Source: Pseudobutyrivibrio ruminis CF1b (GTDB lineage Bacteria; Bacillota; Clostridia; Lachnospirales; Lachnospiraceae). Taken from it: a stretch of DNA of 64,000 nucleotides. The DNA is taken from NCBI RefSeq assembly GCF_000424005.1, contig NZ_AUJB01000008.1, positions 310,001 to 374,000 on the forward strand, written 5' to 3'. Every line of letters begins with the position of its first letter. Position 1 is the stretch's first letter. The translations under genes and the position numbers were made by a program. Shown here one piece after another: positions 21,556 to 53,614 of this stretch. The notes beneath the pieces are model-generated. The model worked only from the letters and a program-made list of their open reading frames with translations, was not told where the DNA came from and did not search any database.

Positions 21556-23046
21556 ATGTCAGTTAATTATGTAAGTACTAGGGATTTGAATAAGCAGGAA
21601 ATCACTGCTTCACAGGCTATCTTAAAGGGCCTTGCAGATGATGGCGGTTTGTTTGTCCCAACATCTATTCCAAAGCTGGAGGTTCCTGTAGAAGAGCTTG
21701 CCAAGATGACATACCAGCAGGTGGCTTATGAGGTATTAAAGCTTTTCCTTTCTGATTTTACAGAAGACGAGTTAAAGCATTGTATCAACAGTGCATATGA
21801 CAGCAAGTTTGACACAGAAGAGATCGCACCACTCGTATTTGCAGACGGAGCTTACTATCTTGAGCTTTTCCACGGTGCTACAATTGCATTTAAAGATATG
21901 GCACTTTCGATTTTGCCACATCTTATGATTACTTCCGCTCGAAAAAATAATATTAAAAATGATATCGTTATTCTTACAGCTACATCAGGTGATACAGGTA
22001 AGGCTGCTCTTGCAGGTTTCGCAGATGTAGAGGGTACAAGAATCGTTGTATTCTATCCAAAGAATGGTGTTTCTGCAATTCAGGAGCGCCAGATGGTTAC
22101 ACAGAAGGGTGATAACACTCACGTTGTTGGTATCAAAGGAAACTTTGATCAGGCACAGACAGGTGTTAAGCAGATGTTCAATGACAAGGCTCTTGCAGCA
22201 GAGCTTGATGCAGCAGGGTTCCAGTTCTCATCTGCAAACTCTATCAACATTGGACGCCTTGTTCCACAGATTGCTTACTACGTATATGCGTATTCAAAGC
22301 TTCTTGCTGAGGAGAAGATTACTTCTGGCCAGGAGATTAATGTAGTAGTTCCTACAGGAAACTTTGGAAATATTCTTGCAGCATACTATGCAAAGAACAT
22401 GGGTCTTCCAATTGCCAAGCTTGTTTGTGCATCAAATGAGAATAAGGTTCTCTATGATTTCTTTACAACAGGTGAGTACGACAAGAACAGAGAATTCATT
22501 CTCACAAATTCTCCTTCAATGGATATTCTTATCTCAAGCAACCTTGAGAGACTTATTTATCATATAGCTGGTGATGATGCCGCTAAGAATGCTGACCTTA
22601 TGGAATCACTTAAGGTTACAGGCAAGTATCAGATTACTTCAGATATGAAGGACAAGCTTGACAGCTTCTATGGGAATTATGCATCTGAGAAAGAGACTGG
22701 TGAAATAATCAAGGCTCTTTACGAAAAGACAGGTTACGTTATCGATACACATACAGGTGTTGCTGCTTCTGTTTACAACAAGTATAAGAATGAAACAGGA
22801 GATGACAAGGTGACAGTTATCGCATCTACAGCAAGCCCATTCAAGTTTACACGTGCGGTAATGGGAGCTATCGACCATGCATATGAAAAGGAAGAGGATT
22901 TTGTGCTTGTAGATAAGCTTTCAGAGCTTGCAAAGGTTAATGTACCTAATGCAATTGAGGAGATTCGCTCAGCTCCAGTTCGTCACGACACAGTTGTTGA
23001 AGTAGATGACATGTGCGCCGAAGTAAAGCGTTTCCTTGGAATTTAG
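21556..23046 (+). CDS. thrC: Threonine synthase
   Basis: 496 aa, full length. A PLP enzyme that converts O-phosphohomoserine to threonine. The N-terminus (YVSTR, then ASQAILKGLADDGGLFVP) and the PLP-lysine segment FHGATIAFKDMALS identify threonine synthase. The substrate and PLP-phosphate motifs (TSGDTGKAALAGF, PTGNFGNILAAYYAK) support the longer Gram-negative/yeast-like class rather than the short class. The ribosome binding site is GCGAGGGAAG. It stands alone: no hom or thrB lies nearby. A structured repeat RNA follows 28 bp after the stop. Confidence 0.95.
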   Translation: MSVNYVSTRDLNKQEITASQAILKGLADDGGLFVPTSIPKLEVPVEELAKMTYQQVAYEVLKLFLSDFTEDELKHCINSAYDSKFDTEEIAPLVFADGAYYLELFHGATIAFKDMALSILPHLMITSARKNNIKNDIVILTATSGDTGKAALAGFADVEGTRIVVFYPKNGVSAIQERQMVTQKGDNTHVVGIKGNFDQAQTGVKQMFNDKALAAELDAAGFQFSSANSINIGRLVPQIAYYVYAYSKLLAEEKITSGQEINVVVPTGNFGNILAAYYAKNMGLPIAKLVCASNENKVLYDFFTTGEYDKNREFILTNSPSMDILISSNLERLIYHIAGDDAAKNADLMESLKVTGKYQITSDMKDKLDSFYGNYASEKETGEIIKALYEKTGYVIDTHTGVAASVYNKYKNETGDDKVTVIASTASPFKFTRAVMGAIDHAYEKEEDFVLVDKLSELAKVNVPNAIEEIRSAPVRHDTVVEVDDMCAEVKRFLGI

Positions 23047-23073: not shown

Positions 23074-23168
23074 GAGCCTTAGGTAGGTAACAAGCTCTAA
23101 GATTTCTCAAGCGAATCATGTTAGATGAGCGGAGAAATACTTAGGCTTGTTACTGTAACTTAAGGCTC
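23074..23168 (+). ncRNA. Conserved structured RNA element, copy 1
   Basis: The outer stem is GAGCCTTA (23074-23081) with TAAGGCTC (23161-23168). Inside, TAACAAGC pairs with GCTTGTTA, CTAAG with CTTAG, and ATTTCTC with GAGAAAT, capped by a loop with AGCGAATC and TGTTAGATGAGCG. A second copy at 46719-46803 is identical at 67 of 78 core positions, and most differences preserve pairing (T-A to C-G, A-T to T-A, T-A to C-G, completely different outer arms). It lies between convergent thrC and the CheX-domain gene, so it could also serve as their terminator region, but it has no T-run. Strand is assigned by analogy with copy 2. Not a family I can name. Confidence 0.75.
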
Positions 23169-23175
23169 GTAATAT

Positions 23176-24057
23176 TTAGAAACAAACTAAAAGGTGCACA
23201 GTTCCGAATGGATAAGCCACTGGGAAATCTACACATTTATTTGGTCCTGAAAGTACACCTTCCTCTGTTATCACAGGTGGTGACAGGGAAATATCTTTTG
23301 AAAGCTGATTGGATGCATTTACAATAAATAGTCCGTTGTGGAGATTAAGGAAATCCTCCAATGCAGCTACAATATATTCATTGAATTCGTTAAAATCTTC
23401 TTTTGCATATCTTGATGAAAATGCAATTGCAGTTTCTCTGTCGCAGTCAATATGAGTGATAAATTCATGGTCACTGCTGACGCCCTGAGATACACCAAAT
23501 GTCACTGGGAACTCATCCAGTACCATAGGTGTAAGCGGAGAGAAGTCCTCTCCAATAAACCTTATTAAACTGTTAAACATCAACTCAAGATACATTAAGT
23601 TCAGGTCGTTGGTAGGCATTTCTGCCATAAGGAAGAACTTGGAAATAATATTCTCGATTGCATCCTGATTCTCAACATCAAGATCTAAATCATAAAGTTC
23701 AGCCTCGTTCTTATAGTCAAAGATAATTCTTTCCAGTTCTTCGTAAGAAAAAACTCCATCTTCAACTAAGTTTTGGCCCAACAATACAAAATCCGGAGTT
23801 TGCTTTGAAAGCAATTCTTCCACCTGAGATTCGTCGAGATAACCTCTTGCTATGGCTATTTCTCCAAAACGCTTATCTTCTCGAGTTTGTACATAGAGAC
23901 ACTCGTCCACTTCATTGGCCGTCATCAGACCCTCGTGGATGGCAATTGTACCAAGCTTTATATGGGTCTGAGAAAGTCGGGACATAGCATTGAAAAGTTG
24001 CTCCTGGGTTACAAGTCCCTTTTGCAACAAATAGTTACCTAAGAACTGTGTATACAT
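23176..24057 (-). CDS. MshEN-repeat plus CheX-like chemotaxis phosphatase domain protein
   Basis: 293 aa. Residues 1-115 contain about four repeats of the MshEN/GspE-N pattern (LG..L...GL.T..(Q/E)(L/V)......Q; for example RFGEIAIARGYLDESQVEEL). MshEN domains in other proteins bind cyclic di-GMP. The C-terminal half (about 150-293) is CheX/CheC-like, with VTFGVSQG, a beta-alpha core and an ALEDFLNLHNGLFIVN helix that corresponds to the E..N active-site helix of CheX phosphatases, which dephosphorylate CheY-P. Directly downstream of a CheY-like gene (3-bp gap, ribosome binding site inside the end of that gene). The domain calls are from pattern; ligand binding is inference. Confidence 0.75.
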   Translation of the reverse strand: MYTQFLGNYLLQKGLVTQEQLFNAMSRLSQTHIKLGTIAIHEGLMTANEVDECLYVQTREDKRFGEIAIARGYLDESQVEELLSKQTPDFVLLGQNLVEDGVFSYEELERIIFDYKNEAELYDLDLDVENQDAIENIISKFFLMAEMPTNDLNLMYLELMFNSLIRFIGEDFSPLTPMVLDEFPVTFGVSQGVSSDHEFITHIDCDRETAIAFSSRYAKEDFNEFNEYIVAALEDFLNLHNGLFIVNASNQLSKDISLSPPVITEEGVLSGPNKCVDFPVAYPFGTVHLLVCF

Positions 24058-35427: not shown

Positions 35428-35640
35428 TACAAGATACCGACTTTTACCTAACCTGGGATGTGCGATTTAACTTATCCTTTTTGAACCTACATTTACTTTA
35501 AATGGAATGCCTATATTTCTAATCGGCTGTCAGGCCTCCTTTGCAGTGGAAGGCAAAAGATTAGTTGCGGCGATCCACCTAGCTGGCGCTAGGAGTCAAT
35601 TGATAGGCCCGGCATTTTGGGTTAGGTTTGTTAGAAACCT
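35428..35640 (+). ncRNA. ssrS: 6S RNA
   Basis: A long rod-like fold: the closing stem CCTAACCTGGGATG (35447-35460) with CATTTTGGGTTAGG (35613-35626); a large 5' bubble strand; GCCTAT with ATAGGC; a 3'-side bubble containing the small hairpin CCTAGC-TGGC-GCTAGG; CTAATC with GATTAG; and an apical GCCTCC/GGAAGGC stem. The 3' segment GCGGCGATCCACCT...AGG...CGGCAT closely parallels the 3' half of E. coli 6S RNA. A TATAAT at 35416-35421 and a terminator at 35643 bracket it. 6S RNA sequesters RNA polymerase housekeeping holoenzyme. The ends are approximate. Confidence 0.8.
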
Positions 35641-44624: not shown

Positions 44625-46706
44625 ATGCCTAGTAATAAAAAACGAAGAAGAATAAAACCTAATAAAAAAATCTTAAAAAGAATGCAAAGAAAACTCTGGC
44701 TAGTCTTTGGAGTTGTTTGTATTCTTTTTGTTGTTCTAATAGGTCGTATTATGTACATCCAGTACACTAGTGGAGACAAATACGAAAAGATTGTTTTAGC
44801 TCAGCAAAAATACGACAGCACGATTATTCCATTTCAGAGAGGAAACATTGTTGATACCAGAGGAACAGTACTTGCTACCAGTGTGGATGTTTACAACGTT
44901 ATTCTTGATAGCAAGGTGCTTAATGAAAATGAAAAGAAAGCTAAGGATAAAAATAAGGATAGCTGTATTACAGCTACAGTAAACCTTGTAGCAGAATGCT
45001 TTCCTGAAATAGATAAAGAAAAGATTAGAACTCAGCTTGAGAAACATCCAAAATCAGCATATTATGTTCTGGCAAAAAAGGTTCCCTATGAAGAGATGGC
45101 TGCATTTGAAGAGAAGAAAGCTTCAAAAGAATACAAAGGAAAGGTCTTTGGTATTTGGTTTGAAAAGGAATACGTCAGACAATATCCATATGGAACACTT
45201 GCTGCAGCTACAATAGGTTATGCCAGCAGTGGTAATGTGGGTGTTATAGGTCTTGAAAATAAATATTCTAATGTGTTAAACGGAATCAACGGCCGTACAT
45301 ACGGTTATCTTAATTCAGACAGTAACCTTGAGCAGACAACAATCGATGCCACAAATGGAAACAACATTGTATTGTCACTTGATGTTAACATCCAGACTAT
45401 TGCAGAAAATGCCATCAAAGAATGGAATGAAAAGACAATGGCTCAGTATAATGCAGATCATCCTGACGAGCCAGAGTATCAGGGTTCACTTCATACGGCA
45501 GCACTGGTTATGAATCCAAATACTGGCGAGATTCTTGCCATGGCTCAGTATCCTTCATTTGATTTGAATAATCCTAGGGATTTATCTGCATACTATACAG
45601 AAGAGCAGATATCTCAGATGTCCACAGATGAAAAGATGGATAAGCTCAATAAGATTTGGCAGAACTTCCCAATTACCTACACTTACGAGCCAGGTTCCAC
45701 ATTCAAGCCATTCACGGTGGCTATGGGACTGGAGACAGGAGCTTTGACTGGAAATGAGACATACTTCTGTGATGGTGGTGAGATGATTTCCGGCTATCCA
45801 AAGCTGGTAAAATGTGTTGCCCACAATAAAGGTGGTCACGGCACACAGACTATTGCAGATGCGCTTTCTAATTCCTGCAATGATGCTTTGATGCAGATGG
45901 TAAGAGTAATTGGACCTGATATTTTTTCAGATTACCAGTCAATATTTGGTTTTGGACAGAAAACCGGAATAGATCTTACTGGAGAGGCCAGTACAGCAGG
46001 CTTGATTTACAGTAAGGAGGATTTGCATTCAGCAATCAACCTTGCTACTAATTCCTTTGGACAGAACTTTAACACCACCATGATTCAGCTTGGAACAGGA
46101 TTTTGTTCTCTTGTAAATGGTGGAAATCTTTATGAGCCTCATCTTGTAAAAAAGATAACCGACTCAAATGGAAACACAGTTAGTGAGATAGAGCCTACTC
46201 TTTTAAAGAAGACAGTTTCAAAAGAAGTTAGTGATATGTTAAAAGAGTATCTTCATTTCGTTGTATCAGATGGTACAGGAAAGACTGCCGGTGTTAACGG
46301 ATATACCATCGGTGGTAAGACTGGTACAGCGGAGAAGCTTCCTCGAGGCAATCACAAATACCTGGTTTCCTTCATTGGCTTTGCACCTGTTGATAATCCG
46401 CAGCTTGTAGTATATGTTATTGTTGACGAACCTGGAGTAGGAGCAGAGGGCAACAATCAGGCCCACAGTAGCTTTGCTCAGGAAATTGTTCATAATATTT
46501 TTGAACAGGCATTACCTTATATGGGTGTAGAATCTTCTCTTACAGAAGAAGAGGAGGCTGCCGCAGCATCAGCTCTTACCGAGGCTGCACAGCAGAGTGA
46601 GAGCGAGCCAGATGAAGGTGTAGCTGAAGACACACCAGAAGGAGGCGAATCTACAGCAGATCCGTCCGTAACACCAGACAATGGTAACGAAGAAGAACAT
46701 AATTAA
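44625..46706 (+). CDS. Class B penicillin-binding protein, FtsI/SpoVD type
   Basis: 693 aa. A basic N-terminus, a TM helix (about 25-47), a pedestal/dimerisation domain (about 55-240), then the transpeptidase domain with S358-T-F-K, SNS (SCND follows) and KTG (GGKTGTAEK). There is no PASTA domain, which argues for FtsI rather than the PASTA-bearing SpoVD, and the tail (about 635-693) is highly acidic and Glu/Ala/Ser-rich, unusual for this family. It makes septal peptidoglycan with FtsW. A structured RNA element lies between its stop and mraY. Confidence 0.93.
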   Translation: MPSNKKRRRIKPNKKILKRMQRKLWLVFGVVCILFVVLIGRIMYIQYTSGDKYEKIVLAQQKYDSTIIPFQRGNIVDTRGTVLATSVDVYNVILDSKVLNENEKKAKDKNKDSCITATVNLVAECFPEIDKEKIRTQLEKHPKSAYYVLAKKVPYEEMAAFEEKKASKEYKGKVFGIWFEKEYVRQYPYGTLAAATIGYASSGNVGVIGLENKYSNVLNGINGRTYGYLNSDSNLEQTTIDATNGNNIVLSLDVNIQTIAENAIKEWNEKTMAQYNADHPDEPEYQGSLHTAALVMNPNTGEILAMAQYPSFDLNNPRDLSAYYTEEQISQMSTDEKMDKLNKIWQNFPITYTYEPGSTFKPFTVAMGLETGALTGNETYFCDGGEMISGYPKLVKCVAHNKGGHGTQTIADALSNSCNDALMQMVRVIGPDIFSDYQSIFGFGQKTGIDLTGEASTAGLIYSKEDLHSAINLATNSFGQNFNTTMIQLGTGFCSLVNGGNLYEPHLVKKITDSNGNTVSEIEPTLLKKTVSKEVSDMLKEYLHFVVSDGTGKTAGVNGYTIGGKTGTAEKLPRGNHKYLVSFIGFAPVDNPQLVVYVIVDEPGVGAEGNNQAHSSFAQEIVHNIFEQALPYMGVESSLTEEEEAAAASALTEAAQQSESEPDEGVAEDTPEGGESTADPSVTPDNGNEEEHN

Positions 46707-46718
46707 AAAATTAGATGA

Positions 46719-46803
46719 GCTGGTAAGTGACAAGCTCCTAGATTTCCTTAGCGAATCGTGTTAGATGAGCGGGGAAATACTAGGGCTTGTTACTGTAACC
46801 AGC
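46719..46803 (+). ncRNA. Conserved structured RNA element, copy 2
   Basis: The outer stem GCTGGT (46719-46724) with ACCAGC (46798-46803), then TGACAAGC/GCTTGTTA, CCTAG/CTAGG, ATTTCC/GGAAAT and the loop with AGCGAATC and TGTTAGATGAGCG. Compared with copy 1 (23074-23168) the core matches at 67 of 78 positions and the substitutions are mainly compensatory. It fills the intercistronic gap between the PBP gene and mraY, ending 17 bp before the mraY ATG, and would be within the dcw transcript. Confidence 0.78.
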
Positions 46804-46820
46804 AGATTGGAGTAGTTAGA

Positions 46821-47768
46821 ATGTTAGAAGTTTTTTTACCTATGTTAATTGCATTTTTTATAGTTATTGCCCTTGCGCCAATTTGCATCCCTCTTTTGAG
46901 ACGTCTTAAGATGGGAAACACTGAGCGTGAGTACATCAAGGAACACAAGGCTAAGAATGGTACACCTTCCATGGGTGGTATCATGATTCTTATTGCTTTT
47001 GCTGTAGTTTCATTACTTTTTGGAAGAAACGTTCCACACATCTATCCAATTGTTATTCTTACAGTAGGTTTTGGTATCCTTGGGTTTGTTGATGATTTAC
47101 TCAAAGCATTAAAGCGCAGTTCAGATGGCCTTAAGGCATGGCAGAAGATGCTTGGACAGATTCTTTTAACAACAGGTTTTGCAGTATACATGGTAAAGTT
47201 TTCTGATGTTTCATTAGAGCTTCGCATCCCAGCTACAGGTGCGTTTGTTGATATTAGCTGGCTTTCAGTGCCACTTCTTTTCCTTGCAGTTCTTGGAACA
47301 GTCAATGGCGCCAACTTTACAGATGGTCTTGATGGTCTTGCTACTTCAGTTACACTTGCTATCGCAGGTTTCTGGGGTCTTGTAGCCATTCACCTTTCTT
47401 CAGATATCACTCCAGCAATTGCAGCTATGATTGGTGCGTTGTTTGGATTTTTAATGTTTAATGTTCACCCTGCAAAGATTTTCATGGGAGATACAGGTTC
47501 ACTTGCTCTTGGAGCATTTGTTGTTTCTGTAGCATACACACTTCAGATGCCTATTTTCATTATTGTTGTGGCTCTGATTTATCTTGCAGAGGTACTTTCT
47601 GTTATTCTTCAGGTAGGTTACTTTAAGATGACAGGCGGAAAGAGAATTTTCAGAATGGCTCCAATTCATCATCATTATGAGCTTGGTGGCTGGTCTGAGG
47701 TGAAGGTTGTTGCTGTTTTCACTACAGTTACAATTTTCTTATGCACATTTGCATACTTTTTGGTATAG
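46821..47768 (+). CDS. mraY: Phospho-N-acetylmuramoyl-pentapeptide transferase
   Basis: 315 aa from the ATG at 46821 (TTGGAG ribosome binding site); the open frame upstream to 46758 runs through the RNA element and is not part of the gene. Ten TM helices. Signatures: KNGTPSMGGIMIL, the DD pair in GFVDDLLKA, NFTDGLDGLATSV and the HHHYE motif in MAPIHHHYELGGWSE. It makes lipid I from UDP-MurNAc-pentapeptide and undecaprenyl phosphate. Confidence 0.97.
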   Translation: MLEVFLPMLIAFFIVIALAPICIPLLRRLKMGNTEREYIKEHKAKNGTPSMGGIMILIAFAVVSLLFGRNVPHIYPIVILTVGFGILGFVDDLLKALKRSSDGLKAWQKMLGQILLTTGFAVYMVKFSDVSLELRIPATGAFVDISWLSVPLLFLAVLGTVNGANFTDGLDGLATSVTLAIAGFWGLVAIHLSSDITPAIAAMIGALFGFLMFNVHPAKIFMGDTGSLALGAFVVSVAYTLQMPIFIIVVALIYLAEVLSVILQVGYFKMTGGKRIFRMAPIHHHYELGGWSEVKVVAVFTTVTIFLCTFAYFLV

Positions 47769-52212: not shown

Positions 52213-52502
52213 AACGTAATAAAGTACTAAACCGATGAGGGAGAAGAGTACCTCTACATGATTCTTTAGAGAGAGCTGCGATGGTGGGATGCAGTAAGAT
52301 AGTGTTTTGGGAATGGACTCCTGAGGGCGTGAGGAAATAGCATTTGCTAGAGTATTGCACGACGTAAGACACACGTTAGTTGTCAGGGATATGATGGTAT
52401 CCTGTAAAGAGCATAAGCATTGCTTATGAATTCAAGGTGGCACCGCGGAATAGATTTTTCGTCCTTGATAGAAACCAGAGGTTTCTGTCAGGGACTTTTT
52501 TA
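52213..52502 (+). promoter_or_regulatory. T-box leader with tryptophan specifier
   Basis: The T-box sequence TTCAAGGTGGCACCGCGG (52431-52448) is near-canonical. Stem I elements precede it (GAGGGAGAAGAGTACCTCT, AGAGAGAGCTGCGATGGTGGG). The specifier codon is TGG (52314-52316) in GGAATGGACTCC, reading tryptophan, consistent with the genes downstream. A terminator (GTCC...GGGAC arms) at 52461-52502 closes it. Uncharged tRNA-Trp should stabilise the antiterminator and allow trp expression. Confidence 0.95.
52461..52502 (+). terminator. Regulated terminator of the trp T-box
   Basis: A 16-bp imperfect stem (GTCCTTGATAGAAACC with GGTTTCTGTCAGGGAC), AGA loop, then a T-run. Confidence 0.95.
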
Positions 52503-52540: not shown

Positions 52541-53614
52541 ATGATTAAAGAAGCAATCGCAAAAATCGTAAACAAAGGTGACCTTGCATATGATGAGGCT
52601 TACCAGGTAATGAATGAGATTATGAATGGAGAAACATCTCAGACCCAGAACGCAGCTTTCCTTGCAGCACTTTCAACAAAGAGTGCAAAGGCTGAGACTA
52701 CAGACGAAATCGCTGGATGTGCTACAGCAATGAGAGAGCATGCACTTAAGGTTGAAACTGGTATGGATGTTTTTGAGATAGTAGGAACTGGTGGAGACAA
52801 TGCACACAGCTTTAACATTTCAACAACTTCAGCTTTAGTAGCTGCAGCTGGTGGAATGAAGGTTGCAAAGCATGGAAACAGAGCAGCATCTTCACTTTGC
52901 GGAACAGCTGATTGTCTTGAGGCACTTGGAGTAAACATCCAGCAGGATCCAGAGAAGTGTGTAGAGCTTTTGGAAAAAGTAGGAATGTGTTTCTTCTTCG
53001 CTCAGAAATATCACACATCAATGAAGTATGTAGGAGCTATCAGAAAAGAGCTTGGATTCAGAACAGTATTCAACATCTTAGGACCACTTACAAATCCAGC
53101 TACTCCTTCAATGCAGCTTCTTGGTGTTTATGATGAATACTTGGTAGAGCCACTTGCACAGGTACTTGTAAGCCTTGGTGTTAAGAGAGGAATGGTTGTA
53201 TACGGAATGGATAAGCTTGATGAGATCTCATTAAGCGCACCAACTAAGATTTGTGAAATCTACAACGGAGAATTACTTACATACACAATTAAGCCTGAGG
53301 ACTTCGGATTTAACAGATGTACAAAAGAAGACTTACAGGGAGGCACACCTGAGGAGAACGCAAAGATTACAAGAGAAATCTTAAACGGTGCAAAGGGACC
53401 TAAGAGAGATGCAGTACTTTTAAATGCAGGAGCATCACTTTTCATCGGAGGAAAAGCAGAGAGCTTCTCAGAGGGAATAAAACTTGCAGCTGAAATCATT
53501 GATTCAGGAAAGGCTCTTGAGACATTAGAGAAATTTGTTTTAGTTAGCAACGAGATAAAAGCAGGAGAAACAGATGAACATACTACAGCAGCTAGGGCAG
53601 CATGCAACGCATAG
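52541..53614 (+). CDS. trpD: Anthranilate phosphoribosyltransferase
   Basis: 357 aa. It joins PRPP and anthranilate. Motifs: [27 protein letters not shown] (PRPP loop), [35 protein letters not shown] and the [10 protein letters not shown] segment. The ribosome binding site is CAGGAGGA. It is the first gene of the operon, with trpE and trpG at the end instead of the start. The 3' end overlaps trpC by 41 bp. Confidence 0.97.

Follow-up and report, generated by a model that had tools for sequence, protein, structure and literature searches.

The window analysed here is the whole stretch of 64,000 nucleotides at positions 310,001 to 374,000 of contig NZ_AUJB01000008.1 (GCF_000424005.1) from Pseudobutyrivibrio ruminis CF1b, and coordinates are counted from its first letter. 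Two hairpins lie in it, one behind thrC, where a gene with a c-di-GMP-binding domain converges on it, and one in the gap between a spoVD-like penicillin-binding gene and mraY (Table 1). They measure 95 and 85 nt, for a model length of 94. Please note that the spoVD-like gene scores below the cut-off of that NCBIfam model. A GGAG within 10 nt 3' of P1 in copy 2 is likely the mraY ribosome-binding site. Copy 1 is a long-stem form between convergent genes, yet it lacks a clear T-run on the + strand.

Table 1. Features of the window. R1 is the first covariance model (see below); both copies are among the nine sequences that built it.
Feature	Position	Strand	Partner, basis or remark
thrC, neighbour of copy 1	21556-23046	+	NCBIfam
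Copy 1, long-stem form	23074-23168	+	R1 match 23074-23167, 99.5 bits, E 4e-25; neighbours by NCBIfam
Copy 1, P1 5' arm GAGCCTTAGGT	23074-23084	+	partner 23158-23168; fold
Copy 1, unpaired A of conserved GTA	23085	+	opposite GTA 23155-23157; A in 43/43 genome copies
Copy 1, P2 5' arm GGTAACAAGC	23086-23095	+	partner 23145-23154; fold
Copy 1, conserved bulged U	23096	+	43/43 copies of the genome
Copy 1, terminal part: symmetrical GA/GA internal loop and loop AUGUUA	23109-23130	+	fold
Copy 1, conserved GTA (within GTAAC)	23155-23157	+	faces A 23085; 42-43/43 copies
Copy 1, P1 3' arm ACTTAAGGCTC	23158-23168	+	fold
Gene with c-di-GMP-binding domain, convergent	23176-24057	-	NCBIfam
6S RNA	35447-35627	+	Rfam RF00013, 77.8 bits
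spoVD-like penicillin-binding gene, neighbour of copy 2	44625-46706		NCBIfam
Copy 2, short-stem operon-internal form	46714-46807; hairpin proper 46719-46803	+	R1, 109.1 bits, E 9e-28
Copy 2, P1 5' arm GCTGGT	46719-46724	+	partner 46798-46803; fold
Copy 2, P2 5' arm AGTGACAAGC	46726-46735	+	partner 46785-46794; fold
Copy 2, terminal part: GA/GA internal loop and loop GUGUUA	46749-46770	+	fold
Copy 2, P1 3' arm ACCAGC	46798-46803	+	fold
mraY, neighbour of copy 2	46821-47768		NCBIfam
T-box leader	52226-52469	+	RF00230, 116.3 bits; ahead of gene at 52541

Both hairpins are strongly folded (copy 1, -50.1 kcal/mol, z -9.6; copy 2, -46.2 kcal/mol, z -9.3), and 0/200 shuffles were as good in either case. 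A first-pass annotation had described a two-copy structured RNA here, and much of it stands. The copies are where it placed them, on the + strand; 67/78 core positions agree (23082-23159 against 46722-46799); six of the 11 differences make up three compensated pairs (in the third helix U-A to C-G and A-U to U-A, in the fourth U-A to C-G); and the outer arms pair in each copy despite unlike letters, GCCTTA with TAAGGC in copy 1 and GCTGGT with ACCAGC in copy 2. The terminal loop of ~20 nt, by contrast with that description, is not open but consists of a short helix, a GA/GA internal loop, and a 6-nt loop (GC-GA-AUC RUGUUA GAU-GA-GC). Its near-invariance holds within one subfamily and fails family-wide, where variation and covariation affect both the loop and its stem but leave the GA/GA letters unchanged. 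The count of two was far too low, as the genome has 43 copies.

No named RNA family could be assigned in that annotation, and none has been added: Rfam over the window returned the T-box and 6S only, neither at the copies. At relaxed thresholds copy 1 drew three miRNA scores far below gathering, and copy 2 none.

Fold and covariation

A pattern on the terminal part first picked out nine of the 43 genome copies, and these nine sites built R1. The model finds the 43 copies at E-values no higher than 1.5e-9; the match after these, at 0.085, is antisense to a copy. A second model (R2, 125 copies) likewise gives 43.

The hairpin begins with an outer helix (P1), followed by a 1x3 internal loop (A/GUA), a helix P2 that ends in CAAGC/GCUUG, and a bulged U. 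Above the bulge come P3/P4, the GA/GA internal loop, and the terminal loop. The inner CAAGC of P2 is conserved, while the outer 5 bp, as in copy 1, are very variable. In the 43 copies, 30/33 pairs have changed on both sides, against 9-14 when the partners are slid by 1-3 columns, and 96.0% of cells pair (27-43% slid; 99.6% in P1). Cells changed on both sides number 323, against 78.5 shuffled and 23-46 slid, and the covariation score is 0.658 against 0.183 shuffled and 0.048-0.089 slid. The pair types are 1,306 Watson-Crick, 52 G-U, and 0 A-C cells. Similarly, 123 distinct rows of a wider set (A4) give 30/33 pairs changed on both sides, 94.3% paired, and a score of 0.613; its 125 rows hold 3,742 Watson-Crick, 120 G-U, and 10 A-C. 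Model fitting of the two alignments, and the use of seven A4 rows in building R1 as well, make the slid controls flatter the structure somewhat.

On the strength of the both-side changes, the 96% pairing, and the 52 G-U against 0 A-C, we conclude that the fold of one strand, the given one, is selected. The earlier reading of selection on an RNA fold, not on protein, is strongly supported by those changes and by the excess of G-U over A-C. In addition, the G-U:A-C ratio is 148:7 for the two sense classes but 11:3 for antisense copies (p 0.04, for a contrast chosen post hoc), which leans weakly to RNA.

It is important to remember that many A4 loci were fetched by a pattern that fixes GTAG, CAAGCTC, GGCTTG, and GTAAC. 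Column conservation in A4 is biased by this, so conservation was recounted on the 43 genome copies. The near-invariant unpaired letters are the A after GT (43/43), the bulged U after CAAGC (43/43), the GA/GA letters (42-43/43), and the GUA before AAC (42-43/43). The fourth P2 position from outside is unpaired in 23/43 copies.

Two side observations concern the ends of the fold (L numbers are our locus labels, G numbers our genome labels). Letters just outside P1 go together, as AUGAGC/GCGGAU, AAUAGC/GCGAGA, and AUAAGC/GCGUAG (e.g., L011, L010, L012), which suggests a further non-canonical base below P1. L161 and L173 represent subtypes with a different terminal part (e.g., CAGGTCACAUGUUAGUGACCGG), and L173 has three successive copies.

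Taxonomic range and position of the copies

The covariance-model search of this genome and of other Lachnospiraceae, as the first-pass annotation had proposed, found many further covarying copies in related genomes, and neither of the outcomes it had named as refuting, an Rfam match or a lack of such copies, came about. R2 gives 1,673 matches in 28/29 Pseudobutyrivibrio genomes, at 0 to 141 each; up to 146 candidates were scored per genome, a limit that G003, with 141, comes near. By thrC, the three genomes with fewest copies, G020 (0), G006 (1), and G004 (8), also diverge most (82, 84, and 87%, main matches). In G006, a diverged look-alike (P1, GTA, P2 ... GTAAC; L330:494-592) lies ~0.9 kb upstream of the sole model match, and the models may overlook older relatives of the family.

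Outside the genus, R1 found the hairpin in 0/16 genomes from other families of the order, and 0/297 other-genus genomes of the family had a match at a weak setting (14 scored candidates per genome). A stronger test, with R2 on the 36 other-genus genomes nearest by thrC out of 397 sampled family genomes, also gave 0/36. The exact core pattern occurs in at least 114 stretches of the GTDB collection; among the matches listed, 113 carry the title Pseudobutyrivibrio and 1 the title Butyrivibrio fibrisolvens 16/4, the latter probably a genome that counts as Pseudobutyrivibrio here. Viral contigs had 0 matches to this pattern, and the open-licence PMC literature gave no account of the family among the matches listed. 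Judged from sequence, this is a family of ~95-nt putative RNA hairpins without earlier description, restricted to Pseudobutyrivibrio in the genomes sampled.

To place the copies, neighbour genes were called with our own hexamer gene finder on 202 rows (A3 + A4) minus the antisense matches L056, L015, and L073, which leaves 185 unique copies, 170 of them with both neighbours. With signs for the flanking genes relative to the hairpin, 97 copies are ++, 52 +-, 20 --, and 1 -+, and 15 have one neighbour missing; this genome alone has 21, 14, 5, and 0, with 3 incomplete. As background, 400 + 379 kb of two genomes contain 53,979 intergenic bases, of which 9,844 (18%) are divergent and 4,937 (9%) convergent. 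Divergent gaps are depleted (1/170 copies against 18% of bases, p 8e-14) and convergent gaps enriched (52/170 against 9%, p 3e-15), and in co-directional gaps 97/117 copies are sense and 20 antisense (p 3e-13). The model's first base follows the upstream stop codon by a median of 21 nt (++) or 27 nt (+-); the upper quartile in ++ gaps is 76 nt, so some copies are not near a stop codon. For sense co-directional copies the median distance from their end to the next start codon is 21 nt; antisense copies have a stop codon, that of the gene flanking their other side, at a median of 9 nt. The comparisons demonstrate, as far as sequence can, a long hairpin selected on one strand, mostly sense, near stop codons.

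Basal stem and tail go with position. A tail was called T-rich if at least 6 T fall in the 12 nt after the stem, in a count that covers 88/97 ++ and 50/52 +- copies. Such tails follow 3/76 short-stem and 6/12 long-stem copies in ++ gaps, 5/20 and 19/30 in +- gaps, and 2/14 and 2/6 in -- gaps, which makes 25/42 for long-stem copies in ++ and +- gaps pooled. Operon copies mostly have a short basal stem and no T-run; copies at unit ends are often long-stemmed, T-tailed, and terminator-like.

The neighbour genes are functionally mixed and, by eye, share no common theme. Those checked with NCBIfam also include leuB, ilvD, pyrC, pyrF, and rmlA, and those named by eye include leuC/leuD, hypD/hypE, purE/purM, and luxS/mtnN. 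The ilv/leu and pyr operons hold recurrent sites, seen in several species.

Copies also occur in doubles. Back-to-back doubles, a minus then a plus copy with a gap of 0-81 nt, are seen at L137:1532-1717, L089:1098-1311, L054:1501-1709, L075:1388-1595, and L157:3342-3609; they recall REPIN-type doublets, and part of the antisense copies are members of such doubles. Direct tandem doubles in one gap are seen at L128:6237-6465, L134:2032-2278, and L147:5082-5314 (pyrC-pyrF in L147).

Turnover, constraint and possible exchange

Synteny was compared on stretches of G000, G008, and G022 holding 16 elements at 13 sites. The element is absent from at least one close relative at 11/12 comparable sites, and at the twelfth it is present in both comparable genomes with differing letters. 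In element-free alleles the place is taken by an ordinary terminator, by a short leader that includes a ribosome-binding site, or by other inserted DNA. The mraY leader has an element in 3/29 genomes (by eye), with the same P1 and different upper parts, and none in the nearest relatives G008 and G022. Similarly, behind thrC there are elements of different subtypes in several species and ordinary terminators in others (19/29 loci compared, two of them at the wrong ORF). Inspection of the compared sites by eye revealed no target duplication.

In the alignments, resident copies have diverged less than fourfold codon sites. In nine same-site pairs with a fourfold divergence of 0.14-0.31, the element differs at 64/844 positions (7.6%) against 450/1,907 fourfold sites (23.6%), gaps and crosswise pairs of tandem copies being excluded. 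Singly, the pairs give 1/96, 2/94, 4/94, 2/92, 1/92, 6/96, 11/94, 18/93, and 19/93. The last two are at about the neutral rate and could reflect exchange or rapid change. For one, L147/L134, the adjoining tandem copy differs at 1/92, and the P1 arms of the changed copy no longer match, as in a chimera. The remaining same-site pairs, at a fourfold divergence of 0.39-0.68, have 16-36 differences.

The core and the lower stem have partly separate histories. Parsing succeeded for 182/185 copies, and 139 non-orthologous pairs have ~58-nt cores that differ at no more than 2 positions. In these pairs the outer P2 differs at a mean of 4.82/10 positions and is identical in 8; the neighbour test may have missed orthology in some of the 139. 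Three orthologous pairs average 0.67. Near-identical cores on different outer P2 imply either frequent movement of cores independently of their lower stems or a remaking of the lower stems. Nested copies, one inside another, are found at L165, L171, and L117.

Bare lower stems that might serve as docking sites were sought, and none was convincing: there were 64 hits, 58 of them with a core, against 17 in the reversed-sequence control, and GCnnGTAGTAACnnGC has 0 occurrences in this genome. The sole exception is the thrC terminator of one relative, which has the same basal stem minus the upper hairpin. A search of 2.4 Mb for arm pairs more than 120 nt apart gave ten, nine at 121-315 nt and one at 6 kb with 2 mismatches. 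An autonomous long form was considered and rejected, the far-apart arm pairs among those listed being mostly nested, tandem, or enlarged copies. A gene-cassette reading of pairs spaced by ~1.9 kb was also dropped, as the spacing at L041 fits the ilvD gene.

What the hairpins may be

Our preferred reading, to which we give a probability of roughly 0.58, is that of a dispersed mobile repeat whose resident copies would act as RNA hairpins at mRNA 3' ends and in operon gaps. Copies would spread by insertion and by swapping their central ~58 nt with one another. Once transcribed, a resident hairpin may protect or define the 3' end of the upstream message and loosen its coupling to the next gene, and the long-stem form would end transcription. 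Copies would be retained after insertion because the transcribed hairpin serves the 3' end of the upstream message. Plausibly, a protein would read the invariant unpaired bases (A, bulged U, GUA, GA/GA). Please note that a single-stranded DNA element purged from promoters could give the same strand asymmetry and gene-end position.

A bolder proposal, which we consider rather unlikely, is a self-spreading RNA module, in which the ~58-nt core (CAAGC...GCUUG) would be copied between loci by an RNA- or recombination-based process. The core would be set on lower stems (P1 and outer P2) that are complementary but site-specific, and up to ~140 gene ends per genome in one genus would gain a protein-recognised 3'-end hairpin.

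Slightly less likely still, in our view, is a selfish single-stranded DNA hairpin mobilised by an HUH/Y1 transposase, as in REP/RAYT systems, with a fold that serves the transposase and a gene-end position that reflects tolerance only. In passages of the literature, REP/REPIN elements with RAYTs are described as high-copy, extragenic, palindromic, strand-asymmetric, and presumed non-autonomous mobile (PMC3733652, PMC3116915, PMC2817692, PMC8266576). The REP palindromes are given as 20-40 bp with a GTAG tag at one end, and GTAG repeats are attributed to Proteobacteria, Cyanobacteria, and Chloroflexi in passages of PMC3733652, a text in which Firmicutes, Clostridi-, and Butyrivibrio do not appear. 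The present hairpins are likewise high-copy, extragenic, palindromic, and strand-asymmetric, they come and go between relatives, and the foot of their P2 may recall the REP tag, being GTAG in 27/43 genome copies and GTAA in 15, enclosed by P1 (112/125 GTAG in A4, biased by the GTAG-containing fetch pattern). However, they are 85-95 nt long and have an outer stem around GTA, an invariant bulge, and a GA/GA loop; they sit at gene ends, and resident copies are constrained in place. They also abound in genomes without a detected RAYT. The Y1 domain (PF01797) occurs in 10/29 genus genomes and is absent from this 43-copy genome; the 19/29 without it include genomes with 71-103 copies. The REP-associated tyrosine transposase model NF047646 is over its cut-off in 2/29 genomes, this one not among them, and no copy lies beside the gene, by a strict pattern, at the three closest REP-type loci (G009, G340, G002). 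At one of these genomes' loci, L272:1243-1863 (G009), the match is just above the cut-off (80.1 vs 80 bits). REP-type transposases do not account for the family here.

We rate just as low a cis-regulatory RNA regulon, in which a genus-specific RNA-binding protein or a ligand would control the next gene or the upstream message. The invariant unpaired bases and bulge, the short distance from sense co-directional copies to the start codon, and the recurrent ilv/leu and pyr sites all speak for it. Against it, close relatives lack copies at the same genes, and neither the mixed neighbours (by eye) nor the 52/170 copies between convergent genes, where there is no gene to lead, fit a riboswitch or leader.

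That the hairpins are merely unusual intrinsic terminators is improbable. The long-stem form does resemble terminators in lying at unit ends, often T-tailed, and ordinary terminators occupy several of these sites in relatives. Unlike terminators, the same upper module also lies inside operons without a T-run, as the 3/76 among short-stem ++ copies attests (a class that includes leuB-ilvD, pyrC-pyrF, and spoVD-mraY), and the upper part is conserved beyond what a terminator needs. Least credible by far is that template-switch repair, to which long palindromes are prone, keeps the arms complementary with no selection: chimeric-looking and nested copies do occur, but repair restores Watson-Crick pairs alike on both strands, whereas G-U:A-C is 52:0 and 120:10 here, and conserved unpaired bases persist.

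Two further comparisons are useful. Integron attC sites are hairpins after a stop codon in which structure is kept more than sequence and the terminal part is variable. These features are shared by the present family, but its copies are single and scattered at housekeeping genes, and no attC core boxes were seen by eye. NEMIS and BOX are examples of bacterial stem-loop repeat families; compared with such families (NEMIS and BOX through Rfam only), the present one differs in matching no Rfam family at its copies, in being found in Pseudobutyrivibrio only, and in having two basal-stem forms. Stem-loop repeat families are described as dispersed and intergenic, with a common secondary structure, and possibly acting as RNA (PMC2267715).

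With ~1,700 matches in one genus and no Rfam 15 match, the dispersed repeat points to a bacterial clade that, in the course of its own history, has remodelled many of its genes at their 3' ends and operon gaps. Presence and absence at the same gene in close relatives provide natural before/after pairs for the function of intercistronic hairpins. Similarly, near-identical cores on differing lower stems pose a concrete question of how a repeat may copy itself.
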